Shown here piece by piece: positions 10,674-26,378 of a stretch of 64,000 nt of DNA. The DNA lies in contig NZ_CP072870.1 of assembly GCF_017948245.1 (NCBI RefSeq), forward strand, positions 1 to 64,000, read 5' to 3'. Position 1 is the first letter of the stretch. Each line of letters starts with the position of its first letter. Made by a program: the position numbers and the translations under genes. Source of the stretch: Rhizobium sp. NLR16a (GTDB taxonomy: Bacteria > Pseudomonadota > Alphaproteobacteria > Rhizobiales > Rhizobiaceae). The notes beneath the pieces were generated by a model. It had not been told where the DNA came from. It saw only the letters and a program-made list of their open reading frames with translations, and did not search any database.

Positions 10674-10688
10674 ATTAGACAAGCGAAT
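10674..10688. promoter_or_regulatory. Candidate LysR-type operator ATT-N9-AAT
   Basis: Matches the T-N11-A interrupted dyad of LysR-type regulators and lies in the 112-bp gap between the divergent transporter and LysR starts, overlapping a TTGACA hexamer at 10669. The motif is short, so chance occurrence is possible. Confidence 0.35.
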
Positions 10689-10728
10689 AGTAGTGATGGC
10701 TATCATCGAGTTTTTCTATGGCTTGCCA

Positions 10729-11604
10729 ATGCACGAGGCTATCGAAAGCGACCTTCTCAGAACCTTTTTGGTCGTGGCCGAGACGTCGAACTTCTCCGCG
10801 GCCGCGCAGCGAATCGGGCGCACGCAATCGGCCGTCAGCACCCAGATCAAGAGGCTCGAGGCGGCGATCGGCGAGCCCCTCTTCGAGCGCGGCGCCCGCG
10901 GCGTGCAACTCACGCGCCCGGGTATACAGCTCGTGCCCTATGCCCGCAGGGTCATCGATCTGCTGAACGAGGCCGCCGCGACGATCCGCAGCAAGCCGCT
11001 GGACGGGCCAGTGCGCATCGGAATTCCCGAGGAATACAGCCAGACGGTTCTGCCCGCGGCGCTTGCGGCTTTCGCTGTGCGTCACCCGGCCGTCGAGGTC
11101 ACTGTCTCCTGTGATTATACGTCGCGCAACCTTGCCGCTCTGGAGCGGGACGAACTCGATCTGGCCGTCGTTTTCGACTGGAGCGACCAGACGAAAGGTG
11201 AGGTCATCTGCATCGATCCCACAGTCTGGGTCACCTCGATGGTCCACCGGCTGCACGATCTCGACCCCCTCCCCATTGCGACCTATCGCAACTCCACCTG
11301 GTCACGTGATTTTGCGCTCCGGTCGCTGGAGCAGATCGGCCGCAACTACCGCATCGCTTTCATCGCCGATACGGGATCGGGACTGAAGAATGCGCTGACC
11401 GCGGGCCTTGCCGTGACAACACTTTCCCGCAGCAGCATCCCGCCCGGCTGCCGGGAGCTGACCGCCGAAGATGGTTTCCCGACAGTTGATTCCTCAAAGG
11501 TCGTGCTCCGCCGCAGCACCTACCGTTCCACCGAAGCCATCCGCGAGCTCGCCGAGATGATCCGGGACGCGTTCCAGCCTACGTCGCCGCTGCCGATGGC
11601 GTGA
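10729..11604 (+). CDS. LysR-family transcriptional regulator
   Basis: 291 residues from ATG 10729, typical for the family. The N-terminal winged helix-turn-helix is LLRTFLVVAETSNFSAAAQR ... QSAVSTQIKRLEAAIGEPLF. The effector domain follows from about residue 95 (VRIGIPEEYSQTVLPAALAA). The frame is open to 10549, and an ATG at 10696 is a possible alternative. Its place divergent to the EamA transporter suggests it controls export of a metabolite. Its 3' end overlaps the convergent GlxA-type gene by 26 bp. Confidence 0.85.
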   Translation: MHEAIESDLLRTFLVVAETSNFSAAAQRIGRTQSAVSTQIKRLEAAIGEPLFERGARGVQLTRPGIQLVPYARRVIDLLNEAAATIRSKPLDGPVRIGIPEEYSQTVLPAALAAFAVRHPAVEVTVSCDYTSRNLAALERDELDLAVVFDWSDQTKGEVICIDPTVWVTSMVHRLHDLDPLPIATYRNSTWSRDFALRSLEQIGRNYRIAFIADTGSGLKNALTAGLAVTTLSRSSIPPGCRELTAEDGFPTVDSSKVVLRRSTYRSTEAIRELAEMIRDAFQPTSPLPMA

Positions 11605-12583
11605 TGCGGCGGCGCAGGCGGCGCCGGGTCTCGGACGGGCTTTCGGAGAAACTCGCCCGGTAGCTTCTGGCAAAGGCCGAGGCCGAATTGAAGCCGGTTG
11701 CCGCCGCGATGTCGGCGAAGGAGGCCGTCGTCTCGATCACCTTGCGGCGCGCCGCGTTCAGGCGCAGCGCGAGATAATGCACATGCGGCGGCACGCCGAT
11801 GCTCTGCTGGAAGAGATCCTGCAGATGCCGGGCGCTGATGCCCACCCTTCGGGCGATCCGCGCCAGGATCAGAGGCTGCTCGATATGTTCTTCCATAAGC
11901 CGCACCGCCTGCGCCACGCGGGGATCGTGCATGCGCAATCCTGGCGAGGCGGCGGAAAGCGGCTCTTCGGCATGAAAGGAGGGCTGCTCGTAGCGGAACA
12001 GCCGGCTGACTTCGAGCGCCAGCGAATAACCTTGGCGCTGCCGGATGATCTCCAGCATCAGGTCGACGGTCGGAAGCGAGCCTGATGTCGTCAGCCGCTT
12101 GCCGTCGATGACGAAACGATCCTTGACGGCCCGCACCTCCGGATAGGCGAGCGCAAAATCCTCGTAATCCTCCCAATGGACGGTCGCCGGCAATCCGTCG
12201 AGCAGGCTTGCTTCGGCCAGCAGCCATGTGCCGGATTCGATGCCGGCGATGACCGTGCGGTGGCGGGCGGCCTGCGAGAGCTGCATCTTCAGCGCCGGCG
12301 TTGCGCTTTGGTGCCAGTTGTAACTGGCCAGCACGAAAAGCGGCGTCTCCTCGCTCGTTGCCCTGAAGGTGCCTTGGGCCGGAATGGCGATATGGCTGGT
12401 GGTCGGGACCGGCGCCCCGTCCGGCGTCAGCAGCCGCCAGCGATAGAGTTCGCTGCCGGAGATGCGATTGGCGCCGCGCAGCGGCTCGATGACCGACGCG
12501 ATCAGGATCAGGTTGGTATCCGGCAGGACGAGAAGGTCGATATCGAGCCGTTCCGTTGATCGCTGCAGCAAGGCCACCTCCAT
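11579..12583 (-). CDS. GlxA-family (DJ-1/PfpI-AraC) regulator, CdhR-like
   Basis: 334 residues. The N-terminal two thirds form a DJ-1/PfpI-like ligand domain (IDLLVLPDTNLILIASVIEP; the nucleophile-elbow position reads AGIESGTWLLAEA). The C-terminal AraC-type helix-turn-helix pair runs from about residue 215 (RVGISARHLQDLFQQSIGVP; ATGFNSASAFARSYRASF). CdhR of Pseudomonas, activator of carnitine dehydrogenase genes, belongs to this family. Here the gene is divergent (92-bp gap) from a run of carnitine genes, so the same role is inferred: sensing carnitine or 3-dehydrocarnitine. The ATG at 12583 lacks a good ribosome-binding site, so the exact start is uncertain. Confidence 0.82.
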   Translation of the reverse strand: MEVALLQRSTERLDIDLLVLPDTNLILIASVIEPLRGANRISGSELYRWRLLTPDGAPVPTTSHIAIPAQGTFRATSEETPLFVLASYNWHQSATPALKMQLSQAARHRTVIAGIESGTWLLAEASLLDGLPATVHWEDYEDFALAYPEVRAVKDRFVIDGKRLTTSGSLPTVDLMLEIIRQRQGYSLALEVSRLFRYEQPSFHAEEPLSAASPGLRMHDPRVAQAVRLMEEHIEQPLILARIARRVGISARHLQDLFQQSIGVPPHVHYLALRLNAARRKVIETTASFADIAAATGFNSASAFARSYRASFSESPSETRRRLRRRITPSAAAT

Positions 12584-12675
12584 GAGTTCTGATAATGTAT
12601 CAAGATCTTCTGAAAGTGCAAAGCATCCTCCTCGATGCTGTCGCGTAATGGAGACAAGACTGGGAGAACAAAAAC

Positions 12676-13578
12676 ATGCCTCTAGCGATGAACCGCGATG
12701 TCTTCGTCACCTGCGCCGTCACCGGTGCCGGCGATACGGTTTCCAGATCCAGCCACGTTCCCATCACTCCCAAGCAGATCGCGGATTCCGCGATCGACGC
12801 CGCCAAGGCTGGGGCGGCCGTTGTTCACTGCCATGTCCGCGATCCGGAAACGGGGGCGGCCAGCCGCCGCAACGATCTCTACAAAGAGGTCACCGACCGC
12901 ATCCGTTCGGCCGATGTCGACGTCGTCCTCAATCTCACTGCCGGCATGGGCGGGGACCTGATCTTCGGCGATGTCGAAAGCCCCCTTCCCCTCAATGCGA
13001 GGGGTACTGACATGGCGGGCGCCAGCGAGCGCGTCAGCCATGTCGCCGAGTGCCTGCCGGAGATCTGCACGCTCGACTGCGGCACGATGAACTTCAACCT
13101 CGGCGACTATGTCATGACCAACACGCCGGCCATGCTGCGGGCGATGGCAAGCAAGATGACGGCTCTTGGCGTGCGGCCCGAAATCGAAGCCTTCGACACC
13201 GGCCACCTCTGGTTCGCCAAGCAGCTCGCCGAGGAGGGGCTGATCGAAGACCCGGTGCTGATCCAGCTCTGCATGGGCATTCCATGGGGCGCGCCTGACG
13301 ATCTCAACACCTTCATGGCGATGGCCAATAATGTGCCCGAGAGCTGGACCTTCTCGGCCTTTTCGATCGGCCGCAACGCCATGGCCTATCCGGCTGCGGC
13401 GGTTCTTGCCGGCGGCAATGTGCGTGTTGGCCTGGAGGACAATCTCTTCATCGGCAAGGGCCAGCTCGCCACCAATGCGCAGCTCGTCGAAAAGGCGGTG
13501 CAGGTGGTGGAAGGCATGGGCGCGCGGATCATCGGTCCGGAAGATGTCCGCAAGAAGCTGAAATTGACGAAACGCTGA
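12676..13578 (+). CDS. BKACE (DUF849) enzyme, probable 3-dehydrocarnitine cleavage enzyme
   Basis: 300 residues of the beta-keto acid cleavage enzyme family. The zinc and substrate motifs are visible: FVTCAVTGAGDT, VVHCHVRDPETG, LNLTAGMGGD, IEAFDTGHLWF and GLEDNLFIGKGQLATNA. BKACEs condense a beta-keto acid with acetyl-CoA, giving acetoacetate and a new acyl-CoA. Next to carnitine dehydrogenase the substrate should be 3-dehydrocarnitine, yielding betainyl-CoA; this is inferred from context and from known carnitine-degrading bacteria. GGGAG precedes the ATG by ten bases. It is first in a run of closely spaced genes (7 bp to the next). Confidence 0.87.
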   Translation: MPLAMNRDVFVTCAVTGAGDTVSRSSHVPITPKQIADSAIDAAKAGAAVVHCHVRDPETGAASRRNDLYKEVTDRIRSADVDVVLNLTAGMGGDLIFGDVESPLPLNARGTDMAGASERVSHVAECLPEICTLDCGTMNFNLGDYVMTNTPAMLRAMASKMTALGVRPEIEAFDTGHLWFAKQLAEEGLIEDPVLIQLCMGIPWGAPDDLNTFMAMANNVPESWTFSAFSIGRNAMAYPAAAVLAGGNVRVGLEDNLFIGKGQLATNAQLVEKAVQVVEGMGARIIGPEDVRKKLKLTKR

Positions 13579-13585
13579 GGATATC

Positions 13586-15076
13586 ATGACCAAGATCAGC
13601 AAGGCGGCCTGTATCGGCGGCGGCGTCATCGGCGGCGGATGGATTGCCCGTTTCCTGCTCGCCGGCATCGACGTCGATGTGTTCGATCCGCACCCGGAGG
13701 CGGGCCGCGTCGTCGGCGAAGTGATTGCCAACGCCGAAAAGGCCTATGCCATGCTGACCGGCGCGCCGCTGCCGCCGCGCGGCAGGCTGACCTTTTGCGG
13801 GACGCTCGAGGAAGCCGTTGCCGATGCCGACTGGATTCAGGAAAGCGTGCCGGAAAGGCTCGACCTCAAACGCGGCGTGTTGACGCAAATCGACGCCGCG
13901 GCGCGTCCCGACGCATTGATCGGCTCTTCTACCTCTGGACTGTTGCCGACCGATCTGCAGCGCGACATGAAACATCCCGAACGTCTCTTCGTCGCCCATC
14001 CCTACAACCCGGTCTATCTGTTGCCGCTCGTCGAAATCGTCGGCGGCGAGAAGACTTCCGGGGCGACCATCCAGGCGGCGATGGACAGACTGCCGCCGAT
14101 CGGCATGAAGGGCGTCCACATCGCCAAGGAGATCGAGGCCTTTGTCGGCGACCGGCTGCTGGAAGCTCTCTGGCGCGAGGCCTTGTGGCTCATCCATGAC
14201 GATATCTGCACCGTCGAGACGCTCGACGACGTTATCCGCTATTCCTTCGGCCTGCGCTGGGCGCAGATGGGCCTGTTCCAGACTTACCGCATCGCCGGCG
14301 GCGAGGCCGGCATGCGGCATTTCCTGGCGCAGTTCGGCCCTTGCCTTGCCTGGCCCTGGACCAAGCTCACCGATGTCGTCGATCTCGACGATGCGCTGAT
14401 CGAAAAGATCGGCCGGCAATCCGATGAGCAGGCCGCCGGCCTTTCGATTCGCGAGCTCGAACGCATCCGCGACGAAAACCTCGTCGGCATCCTCCAGGCT
14501 CTCAAGGGGGGCCACGGCGGCCGGGGATGGGGCGCCGGCAAGCTGCTGAAGGATTTCGAGCAGTCGCTCTGGGCGCGGGGCGGCAGCGCGGCCGCGTCCT
14601 TCGATCCTTCGAAGCCGCTGCGGCTTGTCGAAACGAAGGTAAGCCCTGCCTGGGTCGACTATAACGGCCACATGACCGAGCACCGCTATCTGCAGGTTTT
14701 CGGTGACACCTCGGACGCCCTGTTGCGTCTCGTCGGCGTCGACCTTGGCTATGTCGAGGCAGGCCACAGCTACTATACGGTGGAAAGCCATATCCGCCAT
14801 CTCGGCGAGGCAAAACTCGGGCAGGCGATCCATTCGACCTGCCAGGTGCTGGCCGCCGATGACAAGCGGCTGCATGTCTTCCACACTCTCTACGACACGG
14901 CGTCGGGCGAGGCTCTCGCGACCGCCGAGCACATGCTGCTGCATGTCGACAGCAAGGCCGGCAGGGCCGTGCCGGCGCCGGCCGCTGTGCTCGACAAGAT
15001 CAAGGCGATCGCCGCGGCACATTCGGAATTGACGCTGCCCGAAGGCGCCGGTCGTCACGTCGGCCAGAGGCGATAG
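13586..15076 (+). CDS. lcdH: L-carnitine dehydrogenase fused to a betainyl-CoA thioesterase domain
   Basis: 496 residues in two parts. Residues 1-320 are a 3-hydroxyacyl-CoA dehydrogenase-type NAD enzyme (Rossmann loop GGGVIGGGWIARF; ESVPERLDLK; FVAHPYNPVYLLPLVEIVGG), and carnitine dehydrogenases belong to this group. From about residue 349 a hot-dog (4HBT) thioesterase follows (SPAWVDYNGHMTEHRYLQVF with the usual Asp). The fusion is known for rhizobial carnitine dehydrogenase. It would oxidise carnitine to 3-dehydrocarnitine and release glycine betaine from betainyl-CoA, the two steps either side of the BKACE reaction encoded just upstream. Confidence 0.88.
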   Translation: MTKISKAACIGGGVIGGGWIARFLLAGIDVDVFDPHPEAGRVVGEVIANAEKAYAMLTGAPLPPRGRLTFCGTLEEAVADADWIQESVPERLDLKRGVLTQIDAAARPDALIGSSTSGLLPTDLQRDMKHPERLFVAHPYNPVYLLPLVEIVGGEKTSGATIQAAMDRLPPIGMKGVHIAKEIEAFVGDRLLEALWREALWLIHDDICTVETLDDVIRYSFGLRWAQMGLFQTYRIAGGEAGMRHFLAQFGPCLAWPWTKLTDVVDLDDALIEKIGRQSDEQAAGLSIRELERIRDENLVGILQALKGGHGGRGWGAGKLLKDFEQSLWARGGSAAASFDPSKPLRLVETKVSPAWVDYNGHMTEHRYLQVFGDTSDALLRLVGVDLGYVEAGHSYYTVESHIRHLGEAKLGQAIHSTCQVLAADDKRLHVFHTLYDTASGEALATAEHMLLHVDSKAGRAVPAPAAVLDKIKAIAAAHSELTLPEGAGRHVGQRR

Positions 15077-15086
15077 GAGGAGCGGC

Positions 15087-16247
15087 ATGGATTTCGGTCT
15101 CAGCGAAGAACAGGAAATGATCGCCGACACGGTTCGCGCCTTTGTCGAAACCGAAATCTACCCGCATGAAAACGAGGTGGAGCGCAGCGGCATCGTCCCG
15201 CCGGAACTCGGGCGCGAGATCCAGCGCAAATGCATCGAACTCGGCTTCTACGCCTGCAATTTCCCCGAAGAGGTCGGTGGCGCCGGCCTCGATCACGTCA
15301 CCTTCACGCTGGTCGAGCGGGAGCTCGGGCGTGGCTCCCTCGGGCTGACGGTTTTCTTCGGCCGACCGTCCGGCATCCTGATGGCCTGCGAGGGCGAACA
15401 GCGCGAGCGTTACCTGCTGCCGGCGGTGCGCGGCGAGAAGATCGATGCGCTTGCCATCACCGAGCCGGATGCCGGTTCCGACATGCGCGGCATGAAATGC
15501 GCCGCCCGCCGCGATGGCGGCGATTTCGTATTGAACGGCACGAAGCATTTCATCTCGCATGCCGACGTCGCCGATTTCGTCATCGTCTTTGCCGCGACCG
15601 GCGAGGAGGAAACGCCGAAAGGCATCAAGAAGAAGATCACCGCCTTTCTGGTGGATCGCGGTACGCCGGGCTTTCAAATCCTCAAAGGCTACGATTCCGT
15701 TTCGCATCGCGGCTATCACAACTCGACGCTCAGCTTCGAAGATTGCCGCATTCCTGAAGCCCAGGTGCTGGGCGAGGTGCATCGCGGCTTCGATATCGCC
15801 AATCAGTGGCTTTACGGCACCCGGCTGACGGTCGCCGCCACCTGCGTCGGTCGGGCGCGCCGCGTCTTCGAAATGGCCTTGCCCTATGCCGCCGAGCGCA
15901 AGCAGTTCGGCAAGCCGATCGGCGCCAATCAGGGCGTGTCGTTCAAGCTTGCCGATATGATCACCGAGATCGACGCGGCCGACTGGCTGACGCTTGCGGC
16001 CGCCTGGCGGCTCGACGCCGGCCTTGCCGCCGACCGGCAGATCGCTTCGGCCAAGCTCTATGCCTCCGAAATGCTTGCCCACGTGACGGATGAGGCGATC
16101 CAGATCTATGGCGGCATGGGCCTGATGGACGACCTGCCGCTTGCCCGTTTCTGGCGCGACGCACGCGTCGAGCGCATCTGGGACGGCACCTCCGAGATCC
16201 AGCGGCACATCATCAGCCGCGACCTGCTCCGGCCTTTGGGAGCATGA
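15087..16247 (+). CDS. Acyl-CoA dehydrogenase, probable gamma-butyrobetainyl-CoA dehydrogenase
   Basis: 386 residues with all acyl-CoA dehydrogenase regions: ITEPDAGSDM (FAD/substrate), the middle beta domain, and the C-terminal helix bundle with QIYGGMGLMDDLPLARFWRD and GTSEIQRHIISRDLL. At the position where many family members have the catalytic Glu (YEGT) this protein has Asp (WDGT). Ribosome-binding site AGGAGCGGC precedes the ATG, 10 bp after lcdH. Among carnitine genes the expected reaction is oxidation of gamma-butyrobetainyl-CoA to crotonobetainyl-CoA, as for CaiA; this is inferred from context. Electrons would go to electron-transfer flavoprotein, which is not encoded in this window. 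Confidence 0.82.
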   Translation: MDFGLSEEQEMIADTVRAFVETEIYPHENEVERSGIVPPELGREIQRKCIELGFYACNFPEEVGGAGLDHVTFTLVERELGRGSLGLTVFFGRPSGILMACEGEQRERYLLPAVRGEKIDALAITEPDAGSDMRGMKCAARRDGGDFVLNGTKHFISHADVADFVIVFAATGEEETPKGIKKKITAFLVDRGTPGFQILKGYDSVSHRGYHNSTLSFEDCRIPEAQVLGEVHRGFDIANQWLYGTRLTVAATCVGRARRVFEMALPYAAERKQFGKPIGANQGVSFKLADMITEIDAADWLTLAAAWRLDAGLAADRQIASAKLYASEMLAHVTDEAIQIYGGMGLMDDLPLARFWRDARVERIWDGTSEIQRHIISRDLLRPLGA

Positions 16248-16251
16248 GCCG

Positions 16252-18306
16252 ATGACATCTCGCCCGCTTGACCGCCTGCTCAGACCGCAAACGATCGCCG
16301 TCTTCGGCGGCCGCGAGGCGCGCAGGGTGATCGAGCAATGCGACCGCATGGGCTTTTCAGGCGCGATCTGGCCCGTCCATCCCAAACTCGACGAGGTGCT
16401 TGGGCGGCGGTGTTACCGCTCCGTATCCGATCTGCCTTCTGCCCCGGACGCCACTTTCGTCGGCGTCAACAGGACGCTCACCGTCGAGATCGTGCGCAGC
16501 CTTTCGCGGGCGGGCGCCGGTGGAGCGGTCTGTTATGCATCGGGCTTCAGCGAGGCGACGGCGGAACTTGCCGACGGCGCCGAACTGCAGCAAGCCCTTT
16601 TGGAGGCGGCGGGCGACATGCCGATTCTCGGGCCGAACTGCTACGGGCTGATCAACGGTCTCGACGGCGCCCTGTTATGGCCCGACCAGCACGGCATGAA
16701 GCGCATCGAATGCGGCGTCGCGATCCTCACACAGTCATCCAATATCGCCCTCAACCTCACCATGCAGGCCCGCGGCCTGCCGATCGCCTATATGGTGACG
16801 GCAGGCAACCAGGCGCAGACATCGCTTGCCGATATCGCCTGCGCACTGATGGAGGATCGGCGCGTCACGGCGGTCGGCCTTCATGTGGAAGGTTTCGGCG
16901 ACCTCTCGGCCCTCGAGTGCCTTGCCGCCATCGCCCGCCGGTCGAAGAAGCCGGTCGTCTTGCTGAAGGTGGGCAGGTCCGAGCAGGCTAAAAAGGCGGC
17001 CGTGTCGCACACCGCCTCGCTTGCCGGCAGCGATGGCGTGGCGGATGCCGTGCTCGCCCGCCTCGGCATCGGCCGGGTCCAGAGCCTGCCGGCGCTCATC
17101 GAAACCCTGAAGCTGCTGCATGTCGCAGGCCCTCTGCCAAGCCATTCGATCTCATCCATGAGCTGCTCCGGTGGCGAGGCTTCGCTGATGGCGGATGCCG
17201 CCGTCGGCCGCAGGATAGAATTCCCACCCCTGCAGCCGCAGCAATTGCCGCGTCTGCGACAGGTTCTCGGCGAGATGGTGGCGCTTTCCAATCCGCTCGA
17301 CTACCATACCTTCGTCTGGGGCGATTTCGAACGCCAGACCGAAGCCTTCAGCGCCATGTTCGACGGCGGCTATGCCCTCAATCTCGTCGTCCTTGATTTT
17401 CCGCGCGGGGACCGCTGCGATGCGGCCGAATGGGCGACGACGGCGGACGCGGTTATCGCCGCGGCCTCTGCCACCGGTGCGCTGGCCGGCCTTCTGGCGA
17501 CCCTTCCCGAGAACATGCCCGAGTCGATCGCCGATCGGCTGATGGCGAATGGTATCGTCGCCTTCTCTGGCATCGACGAAGCTATCATAGCGGCGGAAGT
17601 CGCCGCCGGTATTGGCAAGGTCTGGGATCGCCCGCCTCCCCTGCCGCTGCTCGACGTGCCGCCCATGGACGGCGAAATCGAGACGCTGACGGAAGCCGAT
17701 GCGAAGACGGAACTTGCTGCCTGCGGCCTTCCTGTTCCCCGGGGGCTGCAGGCTTTTTCTCCCCGTGAAGCCGCCGAGCAGGCCGAGCGGCTCGGTTTTC
17801 CCGTCGTGCTGAAGGGTCTCGGCATTGCGCACAAGACCGAGGCCGGCGCCGTCGTACTCAACCTCAAAGATTCAGAGGCGGTGTCGAATGCGGCGGCGGC
17901 GATGCCGCCGAATGGCGGTTATCTCGTCGAGAAGATGATTGATCCGCCGGTCGCCGAGCTCATTGTCGGCGCCAGCCGCGACCCGGTCTTCGGATTGTCG
18001 CTGACATTGGGAGCGGGCGGAATCTTCGTCGAACTGCTCGAAGATTCCGTCATCCTGCCGCTTCCGGTGACGAAAGCCGATATTTGTGCGGCGATTTCAT
18101 GCCTTAAAATCGCAAAGTTGATCCATGGCTATCGCGGACGCCGGCGCGGCGATATTGAAGCCACTATAGACGCCGTCGCAGCTACGGCAGAATATGTCGT
18201 AAAGAATGCGGTGCGCCTGGAGGAACTGGACCTTAATCCCCTGATGGTTCTTCCCGAGGGGCGCGGTGTTGTTGCAGTCGATGCTCTCATACGGCGAAGG
18301 AGGTAG
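16252..18306 (+). CDS. ADP-forming acyl-CoA synthetase (fused alpha-beta), candidate betaine-CoA ligase
   Basis: 684 residues in the order CoA-binding Rossmann domain (RPQTIAVFGGREARRVIEQC), succinyl-CoA-ligase-like domain with the phospho-histidine motif AAVSHTASLAGSDG, and a C-terminal ATP-grasp domain (GFPVVLKGLGIAHKTEAGAV). This is the NDP-forming acetyl-CoA synthetase superfamily, which activates acids with ATP to ADP. The ATG at 16252 starts 4 bp after the previous stop; the longer open frame lies inside the dehydrogenase gene. In this operon it stands where the AMP-forming ligase CaiC would be, so activation of gamma-butyrobetaine, crotonobetaine or carnitine is inferred. Confidence 0.85.
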   Translation: MTSRPLDRLLRPQTIAVFGGREARRVIEQCDRMGFSGAIWPVHPKLDEVLGRRCYRSVSDLPSAPDATFVGVNRTLTVEIVRSLSRAGAGGAVCYASGFSEATAELADGAELQQALLEAAGDMPILGPNCYGLINGLDGALLWPDQHGMKRIECGVAILTQSSNIALNLTMQARGLPIAYMVTAGNQAQTSLADIACALMEDRRVTAVGLHVEGFGDLSALECLAAIARRSKKPVVLLKVGRSEQAKKAAVSHTASLAGSDGVADAVLARLGIGRVQSLPALIETLKLLHVAGPLPSHSISSMSCSGGEASLMADAAVGRRIEFPPLQPQQLPRLRQVLGEMVALSNPLDYHTFVWGDFERQTEAFSAMFDGGYALNLVVLDFPRGDRCDAAEWATTADAVIAAASATGALAGLLATLPENMPESIADRLMANGIVAFSGIDEAIIAAEVAAGIGKVWDRPPPLPLLDVPPMDGEIETLTEADAKTELAACGLPVPRGLQAFSPREAAEQAERLGFPVVLKGLGIAHKTEAGAVVLNLKDSEAVSNAAAAMPPNGGYLVEKMIDPPVAELIVGASRDPVFGLSLTLGAGGIFVELLEDSVILPLPVTKADICAAISCLKIAKLIHGYRGRRRGDIEATIDAVAATAEYVVKNAVRLEELDLNPLMVLPEGRGVVAVDALIRRRR

Positions 18307-18312
18307 CATAGT

Positions 18313-19095
18313 TTGAGCGACCACATTCGTACACGACGTGACGGCGCAGTACTGGAAGTCGTCATCGACCGGCCGAAGGCGAACGCCATCGACCTGGCGA
18401 CCAGCCGCGTCATGGGATTGATTTTCCGGGATTTTCGCGACGACCCTGAATTGCGCGTCGCCATCGTCACGGGTGCGGGCGAGAAATTTTTCTGCGCCGG
18501 ATGGGATTTGAAGGCCGCCGCCGCTGGTGACGCGGTCGACGGTGACTATGGGGTGGGCGGTTTCGGCGGGCTGCAGGAGCTGCGTGACCTCAACAAGCCT
18601 GTCATTTGTGCAGTCAACGGCATCTGTTGCGGCGGCGGGCTGGAGATCGCGCTTTCGACCGATCTGATCATCGCCGCCGAGCATGCGACCTTCGCCCTGC
18701 CGGAAATCCGTTCAGGCACGGTCGCCGATGCCGCTTCGATCAAACTGCCGAAGCGCATCGCCTATCACATCGCCATGGACATGCTTTTGACGGGACGCTG
18801 GCTCGATGTTCACGAGGCGCATCGCTGGGGTTTCGTCAACGAGGTTCTACCGGCCGACCGGCTGATGGAAAGAGCCTGGGAGCTTGCCCGGTTGCTCGAA
18901 AGCGGGCCGCCGCTCGTCTATGCGGCGATCAAGGAAATCGTGCGCGAAGCGGAAGGTTCGACGTTCCAGACTGCCATGAACAAAATCACCAAGCGGCAGT
19001 TTGCGACAGTCGACCGGCTCTATTCGAGCGAAGACCAATTGGAAGGCGTGCGGGCGTTCGCCGAGAAGCGAAGCCCCATTTGGAAAGGACGATAA
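18313..19095 (+). CDS. caiD: Enoyl-CoA hydratase/isomerase family protein, probable carnitinyl-CoA dehydratase
   Basis: 260 residues of the crotonase fold: VIDRPKANAIDLATSR, the oxyanion-hole stretch KFFCAGWDLKAA, ICAVNGICCGGGLEIALSTD, and FALPEIRSG with the glutamate used in hydration. This resembles CaiD, which hydrates crotonobetainyl-CoA to carnitinyl-CoA. Translation starts at TTG 18313: GAAGGAGG lies about ten bases upstream and no ATG fits. It is 6 bp after the ligase gene and ends the enzyme block; a 116-bp gap with its own ribosome-binding site leads to the transporter genes. Confidence 0.82.
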   Translation: MSDHIRTRRDGAVLEVVIDRPKANAIDLATSRVMGLIFRDFRDDPELRVAIVTGAGEKFFCAGWDLKAAAAGDAVDGDYGVGGFGGLQELRDLNKPVICAVNGICCGGGLEIALSTDLIIAAEHATFALPEIRSGTVADAASIKLPKRIAYHIAMDMLLTGRWLDVHEAHRWGFVNEVLPADRLMERAWELARLLESGPPLVYAAIKEIVREAEGSTFQTAMNKITKRQFATVDRLYSSEDQLEGVRAFAEKRSPIWKGR

Positions 19096-19211
19096 GAAGG
19101 CGGCAACAACCGCAATGTTTTCCCGCATGATGCGGGCACCGGAGGTGGAGAGGAAACCGCCTGCGATCCTGCCCGGAAGTTCTGTCAACGCACCAAAGAA
19201 GGAACTGGGGA

Positions 19212-20801
19212 ATGAACGACTATACGAAATATCTCGCAAGCCGCGTCACCGCAGGCGGGCTCAGCCGCCGCGAATTCATCGGACGCGCCATGGCGGCCGG
19301 CATCACACTTGCCGTCGCCGACAAGCTCTTCACCGAAAGCGCCGAAGCCGCCGAACCGAAGCGCGGCGGCCACCTGAAGCTCGGCCTCGAAGGCGGTGCC
19401 GCCACCGATTCCAAGGACCCGGCGAAATTCCTGTCGCAGTTCATGTTCTGCGTCGGCCGCTGCTGGGGCGACATGCTGGTCGAATCCGACCCGCTGACGG
19501 GTGCCGCCGTGCCGGCGCTCGCCGAATCCTGGGAGCCCTCGAAGGACGCGGTGACCTGGACCTTCAAGATCCGCAAGGGCGTCAAGTTCCATAATGGCAA
19601 GGAACTGACGATCGACGACGTCGTCGCGACGCTGAATCGCCACACCGACAAAAAGTCGGAGTCCGGCGCGCTCGGTGTCCTCGGCTCGATCAAAGAGATC
19701 AAGGCGGACGGCGGCAATCTCGTGCTGACGCTCAGCGAAGGCAATGCCGACATGCCGCTGCTGCTGTCGGACTACCATCTGGTCATTCAGCCGAACGGCG
19801 GCGTCGACGATCCGCTTGCCTCGATCGGCACCGGCCCATACAAGCTGACGAGCTTCGAGCCCGGTGTGCGCGCCACCTTCGAAAAGAACAAGGACGACTG
19901 GCGCTCCGACCGGGGTTACGTCGATTCCATCGAAATCATCGGCATGAACGACGCCACCGCCCGTATCGCCGCGCTCTCGTCCGGACAGGTGCACTACATC
20001 AACCGTGTCGACCCGAAGACAGTCAACCTGTTGAAGCGCGCACCCAACGTCGAGATTCTCTCGACCGCCGGCCGCGGCCATTACGTCTTTATCATGCATT
20101 GCGACAAGGCGCCGTTCGACAATAACGACCTGCGCCTGGCGCTCAAATATGCCATGGACCGCGAAACCATGGTGCAGAAGATCCTCGGCGGTTACGGCAA
20201 GGTGGGCAACGATTTCCCGATCAACAGCACCTATGCGCTCTTCCCCGAGGGCATCGAGCAGCGCACCTACGACCCCGACAAGGCTGCCTTCCACTACAAG
20301 AAGTCAGGCCATAGCGGCTCGGTTCTCCTGCGCACCTCCGAAGTTGCCTTCCCGGGCGCCGTCGATGCGGCTGTCCTTTACCAGGAAAGCTGCAAGAAGG
20401 CCGGCATCGACATCGAGGTGAAGCGCGAACCGGGTGACGGCTACTGGACCAACGTCTGGAACGTCCAGCCTTTCTCGACCTCCTATTGGGGCGGGCGGCC
20501 GACACAGGATCAGATGTATTCCACCGCCTATCTCTCGACGGCGGACTGGAACGACACCAAGTTCAAGCGCCCCGACTTCGACAAGCTGCTGCTGCAGGCG
20601 CGCGCCGAGCTTGATGAAGCCAAGCGCAAGGACATGTATCGCGCCATGGCAATGATGGTGCGCGACGAAGGCGGCGTGATCCTGCCGATGTTCAACGACT
20701 TCGTGAACGCCTCCACCAAGCAGGTGAAGGGTTATGTCCACGACATCGGCAACGACATGTCGAACGGCTACGTCGCAACGCGCGTCTGGCTGGACGCCTA
20801 G
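19212..20801 (+). CDS. Peptide/nickel-type ABC transporter binding protein (SBP_bac_5), Tat-exported
   Basis: 529 residues. The N-terminus has a twin-arginine signal (LSRREFIGRAMAAGI, then a hydrophobic run ending ESAEAAEPKRGG), so it is exported folded. The body carries family-5 motifs: ESWEPSKDAVTWTFKIRKGV, VKFHNGKELTIDDVVATL, GTGPYKLTSFEPG. These receptors usually bind peptides, but in rhizobia also many other compounds. Directly downstream of carnitine catabolic genes, the ligand is likely a betaine precursor such as carnitine, an acylcarnitine or gamma-butyrobetaine. GGGGA precedes the ATG. Confidence 0.88.
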   Translation: MNDYTKYLASRVTAGGLSRREFIGRAMAAGITLAVADKLFTESAEAAEPKRGGHLKLGLEGGAATDSKDPAKFLSQFMFCVGRCWGDMLVESDPLTGAAVPALAESWEPSKDAVTWTFKIRKGVKFHNGKELTIDDVVATLNRHTDKKSESGALGVLGSIKEIKADGGNLVLTLSEGNADMPLLLSDYHLVIQPNGGVDDPLASIGTGPYKLTSFEPGVRATFEKNKDDWRSDRGYVDSIEIIGMNDATARIAALSSGQVHYINRVDPKTVNLLKRAPNVEILSTAGRGHYVFIMHCDKAPFDNNDLRLALKYAMDRETMVQKILGGYGKVGNDFPINSTYALFPEGIEQRTYDPDKAAFHYKKSGHSGSVLLRTSEVAFPGAVDAAVLYQESCKKAGIDIEVKREPGDGYWTNVWNVQPFSTSYWGGRPTQDQMYSTAYLSTADWNDTKFKRPDFDKLLLQARAELDEAKRKDMYRAMAMMVRDEGGVILPMFNDFVNASTKQVKGYVHDIGNDMSNGYVATRVWLDA

Positions 20802-20839
20802 CGGCAAAGGCACACGCCCTCTCGATCTTCAACGAAGCC

Positions 20840-20867
20840 GGGACCGTGGGAAAAAACCCGCGGTCCT
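20840..20867 (+). promoter_or_regulatory. Intercistronic hairpin after the binding-protein gene
   Basis: An 11-bp stem (20840-20850 with 20857-20867, one G-U pair) with an all-A loop lies in the 94-bp gap before the first permease. Such hairpins usually protect the binding-protein message from 3' decay or limit read-through, giving more receptor than permease. Confidence 0.5.
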
Positions 20868-20895
20868 CCCGACGTTTCAGCGCTAGGTCTTCACC

Positions 20896-21903
20896 ATGAC
20901 CAATCCTGCCCCAAGCAATATCCTGCCCGGCCTCCGGTTCCGGCAGCGTTTTCCGCTGCTGGCCCTCATCCTCGAGCGCTTCGTGCTCAGCATCGTCCTG
21001 CTTTTTGCCGTCTCCATCCTGATTTTCGGCGGTTTGGAGGCTCTGCCCGGCGATTTTGCCACCACCTATCTCGGTCAGTCGGCGACGCCGCAGGCCGTCG
21101 CCAATATCCGTCAGGATCTCGGCCTCGATCGCCCGGTGACGACGCGTTATGTCGAATGGCTCGGCAGTGCCGTTCAGGGCGACTTCGGCACCTCCTGGGC
21201 CAGCAAGAATTCGGTGAGCGAGCAGATCGGCAAGCGCTTGGGAAATTCGCTCTTCCTGGCGGGTTTCGCGGCGGTCATCTCGGTGCCGCTTGCCGTCGGC
21301 CTCGGCATGGTGTCGGTGCATTTCCGCAACCGGATGCCCGACAAGATCATCAACGTCATCTCGCTGGCGGCGATCTCGCTGCCGGAATTCTTCATCGGCT
21401 ACCTGCTGATCCTCTTCTTCGCGGTGAAGTTCGGCATGGCGACCTTTCCGGCGACGGTCTATGACAGCATGGCTTTTTCTGAGCGATTGAAGGCGATCGC
21501 GCTTCCAACGGCGACCCTGGTGCTCGTCGTGCTGGCTCACATGATGCGCATGACGCGGGCGGCGATCCTCTCGGTCATGTCGTCGGCCTATATGGAGACC
21601 GCCGAACTGAAGGGCCTCAGCGCCTCCCGCTCGATCGTTAAGCATGCCGCTCCCAATGCGCTGGCGCCGATCATCAATGTCGTCGCGTTGAACCTCGCCT
21701 ATCTCGTAGTCGGCGTCGTCGTCGTCGAGGTCGTCTTCGTCTATCCCGGCATGGGGCAATATATGGTCGATGCGGTGACGGTGCGCGATATGCCCGTCGT
21801 GCAGGCCTGCGGCCTGATCTTCGCCGCGGTTTACATCTTCCTCAACATGACGGCCGATATCCTCGCGATCATCGCCAATCCCCGGCTGAGGCATCCACGA
21901 TGA
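20896..21903 (+). CDS. ABC transporter permease, DppB/OppB type
   Basis: 335 residues with an N-terminal helix (LERFVLSIVLLFAVSILIFG), the periplasmic LPGDFATTYLGQSATPQAVA segment typical of the first permease of peptide systems, and a BPD_transp_1 domain with five further helices and the EAA-like loop AELKGLSASRSIVKHAAPNA. The inner-membrane partner is the next gene, which overlaps by 4 bp. Unlike most oligopeptide systems, the pore is encoded beside enzymes of betaine metabolism. Confidence 0.88.
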   Translation: MTNPAPSNILPGLRFRQRFPLLALILERFVLSIVLLFAVSILIFGGLEALPGDFATTYLGQSATPQAVANIRQDLGLDRPVTTRYVEWLGSAVQGDFGTSWASKNSVSEQIGKRLGNSLFLAGFAAVISVPLAVGLGMVSVHFRNRMPDKIINVISLAAISLPEFFIGYLLILFFAVKFGMATFPATVYDSMAFSERLKAIALPTATLVLVVLAHMMRMTRAAILSVMSSAYMETAELKGLSASRSIVKHAAPNALAPIINVVALNLAYLVVGVVVVEVVFVYPGMGQYMVDAVTVRDMPVVQACGLIFAAVYIFLNMTADILAIIANPRLRHPR

Positions 21904-22727
21904 GATTGAGAGACATCCCCATCACCGCCTGGATCGGCATGATCGGCATCGCCATCGCCTTCATCTTCGCCCTCTTCGCACCCTGGATCGCACCCTATGG
22001 CGAGACCCAGGTCGTCGGCGACGTCTGGGCGCCTGCCGACGCGAATTACGTCTTCGGCCTCGACAATCTCGGCCGCGACATCCTCTCGCGCCTAATCTTC
22101 GGCGCGCGCACGACACTGCTGGTCGCGTCCGCCGCCACCATCATCTCCTTCTCGCTCGGCATCATCCTCAGCTTCACCGCCGCCGTTTCGCGTGGCCTCA
22201 TCGACACCGTCCTCTCACGATTCAATGATCTGATGATGTCGATCCCGACGCTGATCTTCGCGCTCGTGGTGCTTGCGGTGCTGCCGCAGAATATGATCGT
22301 GCTGATCCTGGTCATGGCGGTCCTCGATTCCACCCGCGTCTATCGTCTCGGCCGCGCCGTGGCGCTCGATGTCGCGGTGATGGAATTCGTCGAGGCCGCC
22401 AAGCTGCGCGGCGAAGGCAAGCTCTGGATCATCTTCCGCGAGATCTTGCCGAATACGCTGTCGCCGCTTCTCGCCGAGTTCGGCCTGCGCTTCGCCTTCT
22501 CCATCCTGTTTCTTTCGACCCTGTCCTTCCTCGGCCTCGGCATTCAGCCGCCGGCGGCCGATTGGGGCGGCATGGTCAAGGACAACAAGGACGGTATCAT
22601 CTTCGGCATATCGGCCGCGCTGGTGCCGGGTTCGGCGATCGCCGCCCTTGCCGTCTGCGTCAACCTTGTCGTCGACTGGCTCCTGAAACGCACATCCAGC
22701 CTCAAGGGAGGGCGCGGCGATGCCTGA
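21900..22727 (+). CDS. ABC transporter permease, DppC/OppC type
   Basis: 275 residues: a first helix (GMIGIAIAFIFALFAPWIAP), the family segment FGLDNLGRDILSRLIFGART after it, and a BPD_transp_1 domain with the coupling loop AAKLRGEGKLWIIFREILPN. The start overlaps the previous gene by ATGA, and the end overlaps the ATPase gene by 8 bp, showing translational coupling of the whole transporter. Confidence 0.88.
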   Translation: MRLRDIPITAWIGMIGIAIAFIFALFAPWIAPYGETQVVGDVWAPADANYVFGLDNLGRDILSRLIFGARTTLLVASAATIISFSLGIILSFTAAVSRGLIDTVLSRFNDLMMSIPTLIFALVVLAVLPQNMIVLILVMAVLDSTRVYRLGRAVALDVAVMEFVEAAKLRGEGKLWIIFREILPNTLSPLLAEFGLRFAFSILFLSTLSFLGLGIQPPAADWGGMVKDNKDGIIFGISAALVPGSAIAALAVCVNLVVDWLLKRTSSLKGGRGDA

Positions 22728-24351
22728 GCTTCTTTCCGTCCGCAATCTGAAGATCGAAGCGACCAGCTATCCGCCCGGCGAACCGCCGAAGCGGGTGACG
22801 ATCGTCGACGGGGTTTCCTTCGATCTCCAGAAGGGCAAGGTCCTCGGCCTGATCGGGGAATCGGGTGCCGGCAAATCGACGATCGGCCTCTCGGCGCTGG
22901 CCTACGGCCGCGGCGGCGCCGAAATCACCGGCGGCGAGGTGCGGCTCGTCGGCACCGACATTCTGGCGCTCGGCAAGAACGGCATCCGAAAAATTCGCGG
23001 CGCAAGGGTCTGCTACGTCGCGCAATCGGCCGCAGCCGCCTTCAATCCGGCGCACAGGCTCGGCGATCAGGTGATCGAGGCGTCGGTCAAACATGGGTTG
23101 ATGAGCAAGGACGAGGCGCGCAAACGTGCGCTTTACCTGTTTCGTGTCCTCGGCCTGCCCAATCCGGAAAACTTCGGTGAACGTTTTCCCCATCAGGTCT
23201 CCGGCGGCCAGTTGCAGCGCGCGATGACGGCGATGGCGCTCTGCTCGAACCCCGAATTGATCGTCTTCGACGAGCCGACGACGGCGCTGGACGTCACCAC
23301 GCAGATCGACGTGCTGGCGGCGATCAAACATGCGATCGAGGAAACGCACACTGCCGCCCTCTACATCACCCACGATTTGGCCGTCGTCGCTCAGATCTCC
23401 GACGACATCATGGTGCTGCGTCATGGGAAACAGGTGGAATATGGCAGCGTCAAGCAGATCATCGAGGCGCCGCGGGAAGACTATACGCGTGCCCTCGTCA
23501 ATGTCAGGCAGGCCTACCGCGACGAAGCCGCCGATCAGTCGTCAGCCCTTCTCAGGATAGAGAAGGTCAGCGCCGAATATTCCAACGGCTTCAAGGTGCT
23601 GCACGACATCTCGCTGCACGTGCCGAAGGGACAGACGCTTGCGGTCGTCGGCGAATCCGGCTCGGGCAAATCGTCCCTGGCGCGCGCCATTACCGGCCTT
23701 CTGCCGCCGAAGAGCGGGCGCATCCTCTTTGACGGCAAGCCGCTGATGCCCGATCTCAAGAGCCGGCCGAACGACGACCTCAGGCGCGTCCAGCTGATCT
23801 ACCAGATGGCCGATACGGCGATGAACCCGCGCCAGACGGTGCGCGACATCATCGGCCGGCCTCTGACCTTCTATTATGGCCTGAGAGGCGCTGAGAAGAC
23901 CGCCCGGGTGAAGGAATTGCTCGACCAGATCGAAATGGGCAACGGCTTCATCGATCGTTATCCGGCGGAGCTGTCCGGCGGCCAGAAGCAGCGCGTGGCG
24001 ATCGCCAGAGCCCTAGCCGCCAAGCCCGAACTCATCCTCTGCGACGAGCCGACCTCGGCGCTCGATCCGCTGGTGGCCGAGGGTATCCTCAAGCTGCTGC
24101 TGCGCCTGCAGGAGGAAGAGCAGCTCTCTTATGTCTTCATCACCCACGATATCGCGATCGTCCGGGCGATCGCCGACAGCGTGGCGGTGATGCATCGTGG
24201 TAAGCTGGTACGGTTCGGCCCGAAATCTCAAGCGCTGTCGCCGCCTTTCGACGATTACACCGACCTGCTGTTGAAGTCGGTGCCGGAAATGGAAATCGGC
24301 TGGCTGGAACGAGTGCTTGCCACACGGCGCATGGAAAGCGCCGGCCACTGA
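22720..24351 (+). CDS. ABC transporter ATPase, two nucleotide-binding domains fused (DppD-DppF type)
   Basis: 543 residues with two complete ATPase units. The first has Walker A GESGAGKS, signature VSGGQLQR and Walker B LIVFDEPT. The second has Walker A GESGSGKS, signature LSGGQKQR and Walker [13 protein letters not shown]. Fused peptide-type ATPases are common in rhizobia. It powers the two permeases encoded immediately upstream, and its start lies within the end of the second permease gene. Confidence 0.9.
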
Positions 24352-24371
24352 ATGTTAATGAAGGAGTGAGC

Positions 24372-26375
24372 ATGGCCTCGCGCGGCTTCACCACCATCGA
24401 GAATGAGTGGATTGCCCTCAAGGATGGAACGCGGCTCGCCGCGCGCATCTGGATGCCAGACGGCGCGGCAGACGATCCCGTTCCCGCCGTCTTCGAATTC
24501 CTGCCCTATCGCAAGCGGGACGGAACCAGCCCCCGCGACGAGTCGACCTATCCGGTCTTCGCAGCCGCAGGCATTGCCGGCGTACGCGTCGACATCCGCG
24601 GATCGGGGGAATCGGATGGTGTCATCGATGGCGAATATACCGAGCGCGAGCTTGCCGATGCCTGCGAGCTGATCGCCTGGATTGCCGGGCAGCCTTGGTC
24701 GAACGGCGCGGTCGGGATGATGGGTATTTCATGGGGCGGCTTCAACAGCCTGCAGGTCGCGGCACTGCGTCCGCCGGCGCTCAAAGCCGTCATCTCGATC
24801 GCCTCGACCGTCGACCGCTACAATGACGACATTCACTACAAGAACGGTTGCCATCTCTCCGCCCAGCTTTCCTGGGCGGCGACCATGCTCGGCTATCAGT
24901 CGCGCCCGCCGGATCCTGCCCTTGTCGGCGAGCGGTGGAAGGAGATGTGGCTGGAACGCCTGGCCGGCGAGCCCTTCTTCATGGAGGAATGGCTGAGCCA
25001 TCAACGGCGCGACGGTTTCTGGCGTCACGGCTCGATCTCGGAGGATTTTTCGAAGGTGGAGGTCCCTGCGCTGGTGATTGCCGGCTGGGCGGACGGTTAC
25101 CGCAATACGCCTCTGATGGCGGTCGAAGGCCTCGGTGAAAAAGCAAAGGCACTGATCGGTCCCTGGGTCCACAAATATCCGCATTTCGCCTGGCCGAAGC
25201 CGCGCGTCGATTTTCATGGCGAAGCGATCGCCTGGTGGAACAAATGGTTGCGCGGCGAGGACAATGGCATCGACGGGCTGGCGCAGACCCGCGCCTATAT
25301 TCTCGATGCGATCCGTCCTGCCGCACGCCGCGACAGCGATCCCGGCTTCTGGATCGCAAGGGATGTCTGGTCGCCACCGCACATGCAGTGTTTCTATGTC
25401 GAGCAATTCGGCCGGCTGACGGAGGGCATGCCGATCCCGCATGCGCCCGCGCATCCCGTCCATCTCCATTCTCCGCTCGACACCGGCACGGCATCAGGGG
25501 AATATTTCACGCTGAAGCCAGACGCCGAACTGGCGATCGATCAGCGCTCGGACGATGCCGGTTCGCTGGTCTTCGATACGATGCCGCTTGCCAACGATTG
25601 CGACTATCTCGGCCGGCCCGTGCTGACGCTTGCGCTGCGCGCTCATGCAACGGGCGGCAATCTCTGCGCCCGCCTGATCGACGTCCATCCCGACGGCACG
25701 GCGACGCGTGTCGCCTTCGGCGTTCTCAATCTCACCCATCGCGACGGCAATGCGGATCCGAAACCGCTGGTGCCGGGCGAGACGGCGTCGATCCGGCTGG
25801 TGCTCGATGCCTGCGGTTACCGCTTCCGCAAGGGCCATCGCATCCGCCTTTCACTCTCCACCGCTTATTGGCCGATGATCCTGCCGCCGCCTGAAGACGA
25901 AGGGGTCGAGATCGATATCGCCTCGCTCGGCCTGGGTTTGCCGGTGATCGGCGACCATCGCCGGATCGACATCGAGGAACCGGCCAATCCCGATCCCTTG
26001 CCGAAATATATCGAGCACGCGGCCGCGGCGACGAAGCGGCAGGTCGTTCGCGACCTCTCGGCCAACCGGACGCGGTATCATATCCACGAGGATACCGGGC
26101 TCACCGAACATCCTGAGACCGGCCTGTCGACCCGGCAATTGCGGGAGGAGGTCTGGTCGATTGCACCGGATGATCCGCTGTCGATGACCGGCATGTCCAC
26201 CTGGACCTGCGACATGCGCCGGCCTGGCTGGTTTGCCCGCACGGTCGCGACGGCGCGAATTGCCTGCACCGGGACCGAGTGGATCATCAGCGCCGTCGTC
26301 ACGGCTTTTGAAGATGACGTGCAGATCTTCGAGAAGGTCTTTGCGGAGAAGCGGATCGCGCGCGACCTGATGTGA
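24372..26375 (+). CDS. CocE/NonD-type serine hydrolase (X-Pro dipeptidyl-peptidase S15 family)
   Basis: 667 residues without signal peptide, thus cytosolic. The alpha/beta-hydrolase core shows FLPYRKRDG, VRVDIRGSGESDG, the nucleophile elbow GISWGG near residue 119, the acid in AGWADGYRNT near 241, and a His in WVHKYPHF near 266. The C-terminal half is the jelly-roll PepX_C domain. Relatives hydrolyse esters (cocaine esterase), acylated antibiotics or proline peptides. It starts 20 bp after the ATPase gene behind AAGGAG, so it is co-expressed with the importer. Release of the acyl group from an imported acylcarnitine-like ester is my inference. Its stop is followed within 4 bp by the inverted-repeat element. 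Confidence 0.83.
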   Translation: MASRGFTTIENEWIALKDGTRLAARIWMPDGAADDPVPAVFEFLPYRKRDGTSPRDESTYPVFAAAGIAGVRVDIRGSGESDGVIDGEYTERELADACELIAWIAGQPWSNGAVGMMGISWGGFNSLQVAALRPPALKAVISIASTVDRYNDDIHYKNGCHLSAQLSWAATMLGYQSRPPDPALVGERWKEMWLERLAGEPFFMEEWLSHQRRDGFWRHGSISEDFSKVEVPALVIAGWADGYRNTPLMAVEGLGEKAKALIGPWVHKYPHFAWPKPRVDFHGEAIAWWNKWLRGEDNGIDGLAQTRAYILDAIRPAARRDSDPGFWIARDVWSPPHMQCFYVEQFGRLTEGMPIPHAPAHPVHLHSPLDTGTASGEYFTLKPDAELAIDQRSDDAGSLVFDTMPLANDCDYLGRPVLTLALRAHATGGNLCARLIDVHPDGTATRVAFGVLNLTHRDGNADPKPLVPGETASIRLVLDACGYRFRKGHRIRLSLSTAYWPMILPPPEDEGVEIDIASLGLGLPVIGDHRRIDIEEPANPDPLPKYIEHAAAATKRQVVRDLSANRTRYHIHEDTGLTEHPETGLSTRQLREEVWSIAPDDPLSMTGMSTWTCDMRRPGWFARTVATARIACTGTEWIISAVVTAFEDDVQIFEKVFAEKRIARDLM

Positions 26376-26378
26376 TCG

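Follow-up and report, generated by a model that had tools for sequence, protein, structure and literature searches.

Gamma-butyrobetaine is reportedly converted to glycine betaine in Sinorhizobium meliloti by five enzymes acting in seven steps, as the abstract of a 2019 study by Bazire et al. is said to state. Here we examine a 64,000-nucleotide stretch of DNA from Rhizobium sp. NLR16a (contig NZ_CP072870.1, positions 1 to 64,000; hereafter the window), in which an earlier note, made from the letters alone, had described a single locus able to import a betaine precursor and convert it to glycine betaine. Several parts of the S. meliloti counterpart have been described individually in the excerpts of the literature that we cite here and below: c01638 oxidises carnitine and turns betainyl-CoA into glycine betaine (PMC12482172), BcoAB has been used as a gamma-butyrobetaine:CoA ligase to produce that CoA ester (PMC8364193), SMc01639 is a putative acyl-CoA dehydrogenase (PMC12542648), and SMc01642/3/4 are linked to proline-betaine transport (PMC3596328), SMc01642 being PrbA (PMC4941405). 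The tags SMc01638, 01639 and 01642-44 agree with the order of genes in the window, where the S. meliloti order is the one implied by the tags themselves. Judged by its sequence, the locus is the rhizobial carnitine locus of the S. meliloti type (SMc01638 region), and the pathway is an already known one.

In our assessment it is very probable that the window holds a rhizobial carnitine locus with a Prb-type importer, which would take gamma-butyrobetaine by way of carnitine to glycine betaine, and that two hydrolases travel with this importer. From the family, order, conservation and key residues of the genes we infer every substrate and reaction assigned to this organism. The genes that the earlier note had named, from the regulator to the CocE hydrolase, are all present and in the order it gave, each being an open reading frame at or near its place and a member of its family by Pfam or NCBIfam matches. 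The features of the locus are as follows.

11579..12583, minus strand: AraC/GlxA-type regulator, CdhR/GbdR-like, divergent from the operon (HTH_18, 79.8 bits)
12587..12618, plus strand: two direct half-sites, TTCTGATAATG and TTCTGAAAGTG, 21 bp apart, candidate regulator site (motif scoring)
12676..13578, plus strand: BKACE (PF05853, 321 bits, cut-off 24.8)
13586..15076, plus strand: carnitine 3-dehydrogenase fused to a 4HBT thioesterase (NF005716, 938 bits, curated cut-off 592; 3HCDH_N, 3HCDH, 4HBT_2)
15087..16247, plus strand: acyl-CoA dehydrogenase (Acyl-CoA_dh N, M and C domains)
16252..18306, plus strand: ADP-forming acyl-CoA ligase, 684 aa (CoA_binding_2, Succ_CoA_lig, ATP-grasp_5)
18313..19095, plus strand: crotonase (NF002936, 313 bits over residues 1-260, cut-off 500)
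19212..20801, plus strand: family-5 substrate-binding protein, PrbA-like, SBP1 type (SBP_bac_5, 264 bits; twin-arginine-like signal SRREFIG by eye)
20896..21903, plus strand: permease 1, PrbB-like (BPD_transp_1, 98.1 bits)
21900..22727, plus strand: permease 2, PrbC-like (BPD_transp_1, 98.4 bits; OppC_N)
22720..24351, plus strand: ATPase with two ABC domains, PrbD-like (two ABC_tran stretches)
24366..26375, plus strand: CocE/NonD-type serine hydrolase (TIGR00976, 225 bits, cut-off 66.3; Peptidase_S15, PepX_C; GISWG nucleophile motif)
26650..27561, minus strand: HSL-type hydrolase (Abhydrolase_3, 207 bits; HGGG and GDSAG), beyond the span of the earlier note

The carnitine dehydrogenase-thioesterase fusion is the strongest single assignment at the locus, clearing the curated NF005716 cut-off by a wide margin, and the preceding gene is the sole BKACE match in the genome carrying the window (6.58 Mb, to which all whole-genome searches refer). 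In the proposed route, betaine-like compounds would be taken up by the Prb-type ABC importer; the ADP-forming ligase would convert gamma-butyrobetaine to gamma-butyrobetainyl-CoA, the acyl-CoA dehydrogenase would convert this to crotonobetainyl-CoA, the crotonase would hydrate crotonobetainyl-CoA to carnitinyl-CoA, and the thioesterase domain could liberate carnitine from it. Carnitine itself would enter midway in the pathway, where the carnitine dehydrogenase would turn it into dehydrocarnitine. The BKACE is predicted to convert dehydrocarnitine and acetyl-CoA to betainyl-CoA and acetoacetate, and the thioesterase would then yield glycine betaine from betainyl-CoA. Rhizobia meet betaines at roots and in nodules, and such a locus would channel them to glycine betaine, an osmoprotectant as well as a nutrient.

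The conservation of this arrangement was assessed across 80 loci which, because they were chosen as the best matches to the fusion in named genomes, are biased to Rhizobiaceae. Regulator and BKACE were both found in 79 of the 80. Gene-set counts were restricted to the 75 loci with full 10-kb flanks (five with short flanks were excluded), and 64 of these, Sinorhizobium among them, hold the regulator, BKACE and fusion together with the three entry enzymes (ligase, acyl-CoA dehydrogenase and crotonase) and the complete set of four importer genes. Given this retention in 64 of 75 relatives, the arrangement is not due to chance. Further afield, we read 19 hand-picked loci from the same order (nearly the best in the order, with one passed over) and 20 hand-picked, non-random loci at the level of the phylum, several of these loci being truncated by contig ends. 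All three entry enzymes are present in four of the 19 same-order loci, with two of the three in another two, and an importer of >45% identity occurs in one; all three entry enzymes are present in five of the 20 phylum-level loci. These counts show that entry and exit enzymes side by side recur widely across taxa, and that, within the loci sampled, the importer is an addition found mainly in Rhizobiaceae. The description of the arrangement as unusual therefore does not hold, since the same locus is common in the family and the S. meliloti enzymes, according to the excerpts cited above, have already been characterised. Within the window, gaps of 4-10 bp separate the genes from BKACE through the crotonase, followed by a gap of 116 bp (19096-19211) before the binding-protein gene, and the fusion gene and its counterpart in Rhizobium aethiopicum share 95% identity. 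A scan for sigma-70 promoters returned eight promoter-like sites against 3.1 expected, none of them in the 92-bp gap between regulator and BKACE or in the 116-bp gap, and a terminator scan returned 14 terminator-like sites against 10.3 expected, including one on the minus strand in the 116-bp gap.

For the ligase, the start is most likely the ATG at 16252 rather than the TTG at 16141, giving a product of 684 residues, of which residues 11-680 align with DddX, a lyase of dimethylsulfoniopropionate (DMSP), at an E-value of 1e-63. Residue conservation was read from an alignment of 61 rows, comprising the window protein and the first 60 out of the 69 sequences extracted (three of the 69 contain internal stop symbols). 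His253, which corresponds to the phosphohistidine His292 of DddX, is conserved in 61 of 61 rows, and Tyr351, Phe354, Trp356 and Trp394 are each fixed in all 61. Trp394 aligns with Phe435 of DddX, one of two residues, together with Trp391, that hold the sulfonium by cation-pi contact in a docked model (excerpt of PMC8163506). DddX Trp391 aligns with His352 of the ligase (His in every row), and Glu432, which serves DddX as lyase base, with Ala391, where the five commonest residues (A, G, P, T and S) account for 60 of the 61 rows and none is Glu. With the phosphohistidine and the aromatics kept and the lyase base replaced, the pattern agrees with a ligase that acts on a cationic acid and has no lyase step, and we predict a gamma-butyrobetaine--CoA ligase of the BcoAB type.

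The other two entry enzymes, predicted to be a gamma-butyrobetainyl-CoA dehydrogenase and a crotonobetainyl-CoA hydratase, both belong to broad families and were compared with curated models and catalytic residues. Against CaiA, the acyl-CoA dehydrogenase scores 189 bits, far below the cut-off of 540. In acyl-CoA dehydrogenases a conserved Glu is the catalytic residue; the window protein carries Asp at this position, within a RIWDGTSE motif shared by all 71 orthologues extracted (the solved relative 1ukw reads YEGT here), and this Asp would be the working base. For the crotonase, the best NCBIfam match is the crotonobetainyl-CoA hydratase CaiD, short of the cut-off at the score given above; its first Glu (GGG[LF]E) is present in 69 of 69 orthologues and its second (ALPEIR) in 68 of 69. 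A gamma-butyrobetaine hydroxylase was considered as a parallel entry and ruled out, the best score in the genome being 19.4 bits against a cut-off of 414.75. The interpretation in the earlier note is supported as to its route, which is probably right: the gene set fits passage from gamma-butyrobetaine to betaine, and no such hydroxylase was found in the genome as an alternative.

With regard to control of the locus, the best NCBIfam match of the divergent regulator is GbdR (199 bits, below the cut-off of 480); its AraC-type helix-turn-helix (HTH) is present as HTH_18, and its DJ-1/PfpI half reaches 22.2 bits, below the Pfam cut-off of 26.6. Across 80 regulator-BKACE intergenic regions (the window and 79 loci), a pair of half-sites at a spacing of 21 scores at least 15 of 20 in 70, where the motif was derived from the very regions on which it was scored. 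Any other spacing within 14-31 gives at most 25 regions, and 50 shuffles give at most one. The pair in the window carries three mismatches and is the sole match in the window, against 0.02 expected. In Pseudomonas aeruginosa, the operon of CdhR is preceded by direct repeats to which this regulator binds (excerpt of PMC5806209), and the 21-bp-spaced direct repeat is a candidate site of the CdhR-like regulator, which bound there would be the likely switch of the pathway. Beyond the regulator lies a LysR-type regulator gene (10549-11604), the frame of which overlaps the 3' end of the CdhR-like gene by 26 bp on the opposite strand.

The Prb transporter comprises an Opp-type substrate-binding protein (SBP), two permeases and one ATPase with two ABC domains. 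The window importer shares with S. meliloti Prb one family-5 binding protein, two permeases and one double ATPase, and no architectural difference was seen. Orthology to S. meliloti PrbABCD is further supported by the binding protein, which is 84% identical to S. meliloti protein P0029, by the 97% identity of P0029 to the binding protein at the same locus of Sinorhizobium medicae, and by the order of the SMc tags, although the link from tag to sequence is indirect. A title cited by PMC3557214 (Alloing et al. 2006) terms Prb an Opp-like proline-betaine ABC transporter of S. meliloti, and an excerpt of the same paper reports one PrbABCD orthologue each, on a megaplasmid, in Rhizobium tropici CIAT 899 and PRF 81, the latter being locus L058 of our sample.

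A tree of 52 binding proteins resolved three types. SBP1 is the carnitine-locus type and includes the window protein. SBP2 forms one clade with full support and, in many rhizobia, lies beside CocE behind a divergent Cro/CI-type HTH gene. The third type accompanies a stand-alone module of importer, CocE and hydrolase, and the carnitine-locus proteins of L060 and L065 group with it; the protein of L073 is set apart on a long branch. SBP1 and SBP2 are distinguished by 23 fixed differences, which are not interpretable without a structure, and the PDB relatives of the binding protein, as also of CocE, are too distant to indicate a substrate. The Cro/CI-type gene, at L128:2855-3640 on the minus strand in R. 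aethiopicum and with equivalents in other rhizobia, is divergent from SBP2 and CocE, and suggests that SBP2 and CocE form a separately controlled unit in many relatives. A second binding protein of this type elsewhere in the genome of the window was sought and rejected, since the best match to SBP2 is SBP1 itself (66%) and the next reaches 38%.

We next consider the hydrolases. CocE shows no signal peptide by eye, and its position was examined in 50 of the 80 genomes, all of which hold a match at E <= 1e-100 (47 at >=67% identity and three at 42-44%). Judged from coordinates, CocE is encoded on the strand of the fusion and no more than 20 kb downstream of it in 34 of the 50. The contig in this count was inferred from matching coordinates; one of the 34, the 42% homologue of L057, may sit on another contig, and 20 of the 34 were confirmed by reading the region. 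Together with 16 genomes in which CocE was not found near the fusion, these 20 make up 36 regions read around CocE: an importer binding-protein or ATPase gene adjoins CocE in 32 of them, and a convergent HSL gene lies near it in 27. Importer, CocE and HSL hydrolase also occur elsewhere as one module.

Also identified was a likely parallel to the HSL gene in a Pseudomonas-like genome (L161), where genes for an OpuAC binding protein, BKACE, dehydrogenase and thioesterase, divergent from the regulator, are followed by one for an HSL hydrolase; the published caiX-cdhCAB-hocS operon has this same order (excerpt of PMC5806209). When the L161 hydrolase was searched against the genome of the window, its best match was the window HSL gene (149.8 bits, the next being 97.9), and the two are reciprocal best matches and members of the same Pfam family, a comparison made with L161 and not with P. 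aeruginosa HocS itself. Among 121 genomes of the family, an HSL orthologue (E <= 1e-90) is present in 17 of the 22 that carry a fusion of >=60% identity and in one of the 99 others (Fisher p 2e-15), this single exception carrying a fusion of 54%, and CocE (>=60%) is present in 19 of the same 22 and in eight of the 99 (Fisher p 4e-13); both values ignore relatedness, and the 60% line was picked after the data had been seen. On the position and co-occurrence of the hydrolases, the HSL enzyme is the better candidate for an acylcarnitine hydrolase than CocE, and by analogy to HocS of Pseudomonas it would, somewhat more probably than otherwise, free carnitine from short acylcarnitines; CocE is left with another imported ester or amide, perhaps a betaine ester, an assignment that we favour among those available for it, albeit tentatively and with less than even confidence. 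The view of CocE as the only ester hydrolase of the locus is accordingly given up, a HocS-like HSL hydrolase lying just downstream, and the end of the locus at 26375 was set too early, since the HSL gene at 26650-27561 on the minus strand probably belongs to it. In a literature search for a link between CocE and carnitine, butyrobetaine or acylcarnitine hydrolase, none of the ten matches listed, out of 58, mentions CocE, which is not proof of absence.

Between CocE and the HSL gene of the window lies a 277-bp element (26378-26654) with 34-nt inverted ends that are 97% complementary; the 70 matching pieces listed, spread over the genome, include a second, almost complete copy (96%) and numerous shorter fragments. 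In R. aethiopicum (L128) this element is lacking and the CocE and HSL frames are 3 bases apart. In L154, and near 204-209 kb of contig C7 of genome G656, HSL lies directly behind the fusion with CocE 1-2 kb further on, on the opposite strand. Downstream of the HSL gene in the window, a YfbK-like von Willebrand factor A protein is encoded at 28168-30480, the start of its mechanically called frame being probably too far upstream.

Several observations weigh against the reading of the locus proposed here. None of the three entry enzymes rises above a curated substrate-specific cut-off. Among the 75 full-flank loci, five have the entry enzymes with no importer at the locus, three (L064, L065 and L104) have the importer with no entry enzymes there (the search for these covering the locus and not the rest of each genome), two have the regulator, BKACE and fusion only, and one, in Caballeronia (L073), has the importer without the regulator-BKACE pair; because of these partial sets, the gene set is not obligate as a whole. 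Two of the three genomes that lack a CocE above 44% identity (L057 and L067) hold an otherwise complete locus, and of the 27 family genomes that have CocE, only 15 carry it 25 kb or less from the fusion. The best match to the window HSL protein is at the carnitine locus in eight of 18 genomes and away from it in ten (second-best at the locus in three, elsewhere or on another contig in seven). Finally, the S. meliloti counterpart of the importer is named Prb, for proline betaine. This name, along with the description of SMc01642-44 as a proline-betaine transporter in the excerpt cited above, would suit an importer of proline betaine (stachydrine) that neighbours the carnitine genes by chance, carnitine and gamma-butyrobetaine entering via other transporters, as would the occurrence of the importer-CocE module apart from carnitine genes in seven genomes. 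We regard such a chance association as somewhat unlikely, given that the importer adjoins the carnitine core even at the three loci without entry enzymes, that in each of the seven full-flank cases where regulator and BKACE stand without an importer, the genome carries importer, CocE and HSL gene together elsewhere, and that in other taxa carnitine genes have a distant importer homologue (about 45-57%) as their neighbour (L156 with L187, and L181). The presence of the importer at those three loci hints that it carries more than gamma-butyrobetaine, and a general betaine importer would be the simplest reading; the label of a dedicated importer, in view of the same three loci and of the name Prb, is not supported.

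A different substrate for the entry enzymes themselves can also be envisaged, namely another onium acid such as DMSP, processed in the manner of DddX to dimethyl sulfide and acryloyl-CoA. The near full-length alignment of the ligase with DddX speaks for it, as does the dehydrogenase, which among NCBIfam models matches acryloyl-CoA reductase best, under its cut-off. The residues described above speak strongly the other way, however: a role of the ligase as DMSP lyase was ruled out on the absence of the lyase base (Glu432 to Ala391), DddX Trp391 is likewise replaced (by His352), the four aromatics in those stretches are fixed, and the crotonase is closest to crotonobetainyl-CoA hydratase, leaving this alternative highly improbable. 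As for the hydrolases, CocE and the HSL enzyme might be unrelated neighbours with housekeeping or detoxifying roles. Both families are broad, 12 of the 27 family genomes have CocE far from the fusion, and no HSL gene was seen near CocE in nine of the 36 regions read, four of which (L117, L118, L120 and L123) also lack an adjacent importer gene. Against this stand the co-occurrence of both hydrolases with the fusion in the 121 family genomes, the closeness of HSL to the fusion, at most 25 kb away in 16 of 18 genomes (two of which have CocE elsewhere), and the presence of HSL homologues beside carnitine genes in nine of the 20 phylum-level loci, seven of the nine Pfam-checked; we consider unrelated neighbours unlikely. 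The preferred reading remains a carnitine locus with a Prb-type importer and two accompanying hydrolases.

An extension of this reading would be that the importer, with its exchangeable binding proteins, forms together with CocE and the HocS-like hydrolase a mobile module for scavenging acyl-betaines, by which plant-derived esters of carnitine or other betaines would be imported intact and hydrolysed in the cell by the two hydrolases, which are unrelated to each other, the products then joining the gamma-butyrobetaine/carnitine route. We put this forward as a speculation that is rather doubtful at present. We know of no CocE-family enzyme with a natural betaine-ester substrate so far, and the module, if real, would hold the first. 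These results raise the questions of what the true cargo of the Opp-like Prb importer is and of which hydrolases release carnitine from esters outside Pseudomonas.

Compared with the described systems, the window resembles the S. meliloti carnitine locus (Bazire et al. 2019, J Bacteriol 201:e00772-18) in its enzyme set, with gene order matched via the close relative S. medicae (L070); in S. medicae (region L134), an HTH gene and a second binding protein lie between the ATPase and CocE, and the window is without both. The cai operon of Escherichia coli carries out the same butyrobetainyl-CoA, crotonobetainyl-CoA and carnitinyl-CoA chemistry as the proposed route. In the window, by contrast, an ADP-forming ligase replaces CaiC/CaiB, the dehydrogenase and crotonase fall below the CaiA and CaiD cut-offs, and the pathway presumably runs in the oxidative direction, unlike that of E. 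coli. In P. aeruginosa the operon order is caiX-cdhCAB-hocS, with cdhR (excerpt of PMC5806209). A divergent CdhR-type regulator, BKACE, dehydrogenase and thioesterase are common to this system and the window, and an HSL gene occupies the hocS position in Pseudomonas-like genomes; the window differs in that dehydrogenase and thioesterase are fused, a peptide-type importer replaces CaiX/CbcWV, entry enzymes and CocE are added, and the hydrolase gene is convergent. An excerpt of a 2007 review (PMC2131755) describes HK4, an industrial L-carnitine producer placed between Agrobacterium and Rhizobium, as forming L-carnitine from gamma-butyrobetaine by a route resembling fatty-acid degradation and as using carnitine for growth, with a mutant, HK13, that lacks carnitine dehydrogenase; Table 2 of the same review, contradicting its text, places HK4 under gamma-butyrobetaine hydroxylase. 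The likeness of HK4 to the window is one of described route and not of compared sequence. A metabolic model of Rhizobium leguminosarum includes carnitine metabolism, with dehydrocarnitine and betainyl-CoA among the reporter metabolites of a rhizosphere comparison (excerpt of PMC8751395). Set beside these systems, the new parts of the present locus are modest, and consist of the HocS-like hydrolase, the module of importer, CocE and hydrolase with its differing binding proteins, the half-site pair conserved between regulator and BKACE, and what the residues of the ligase show.

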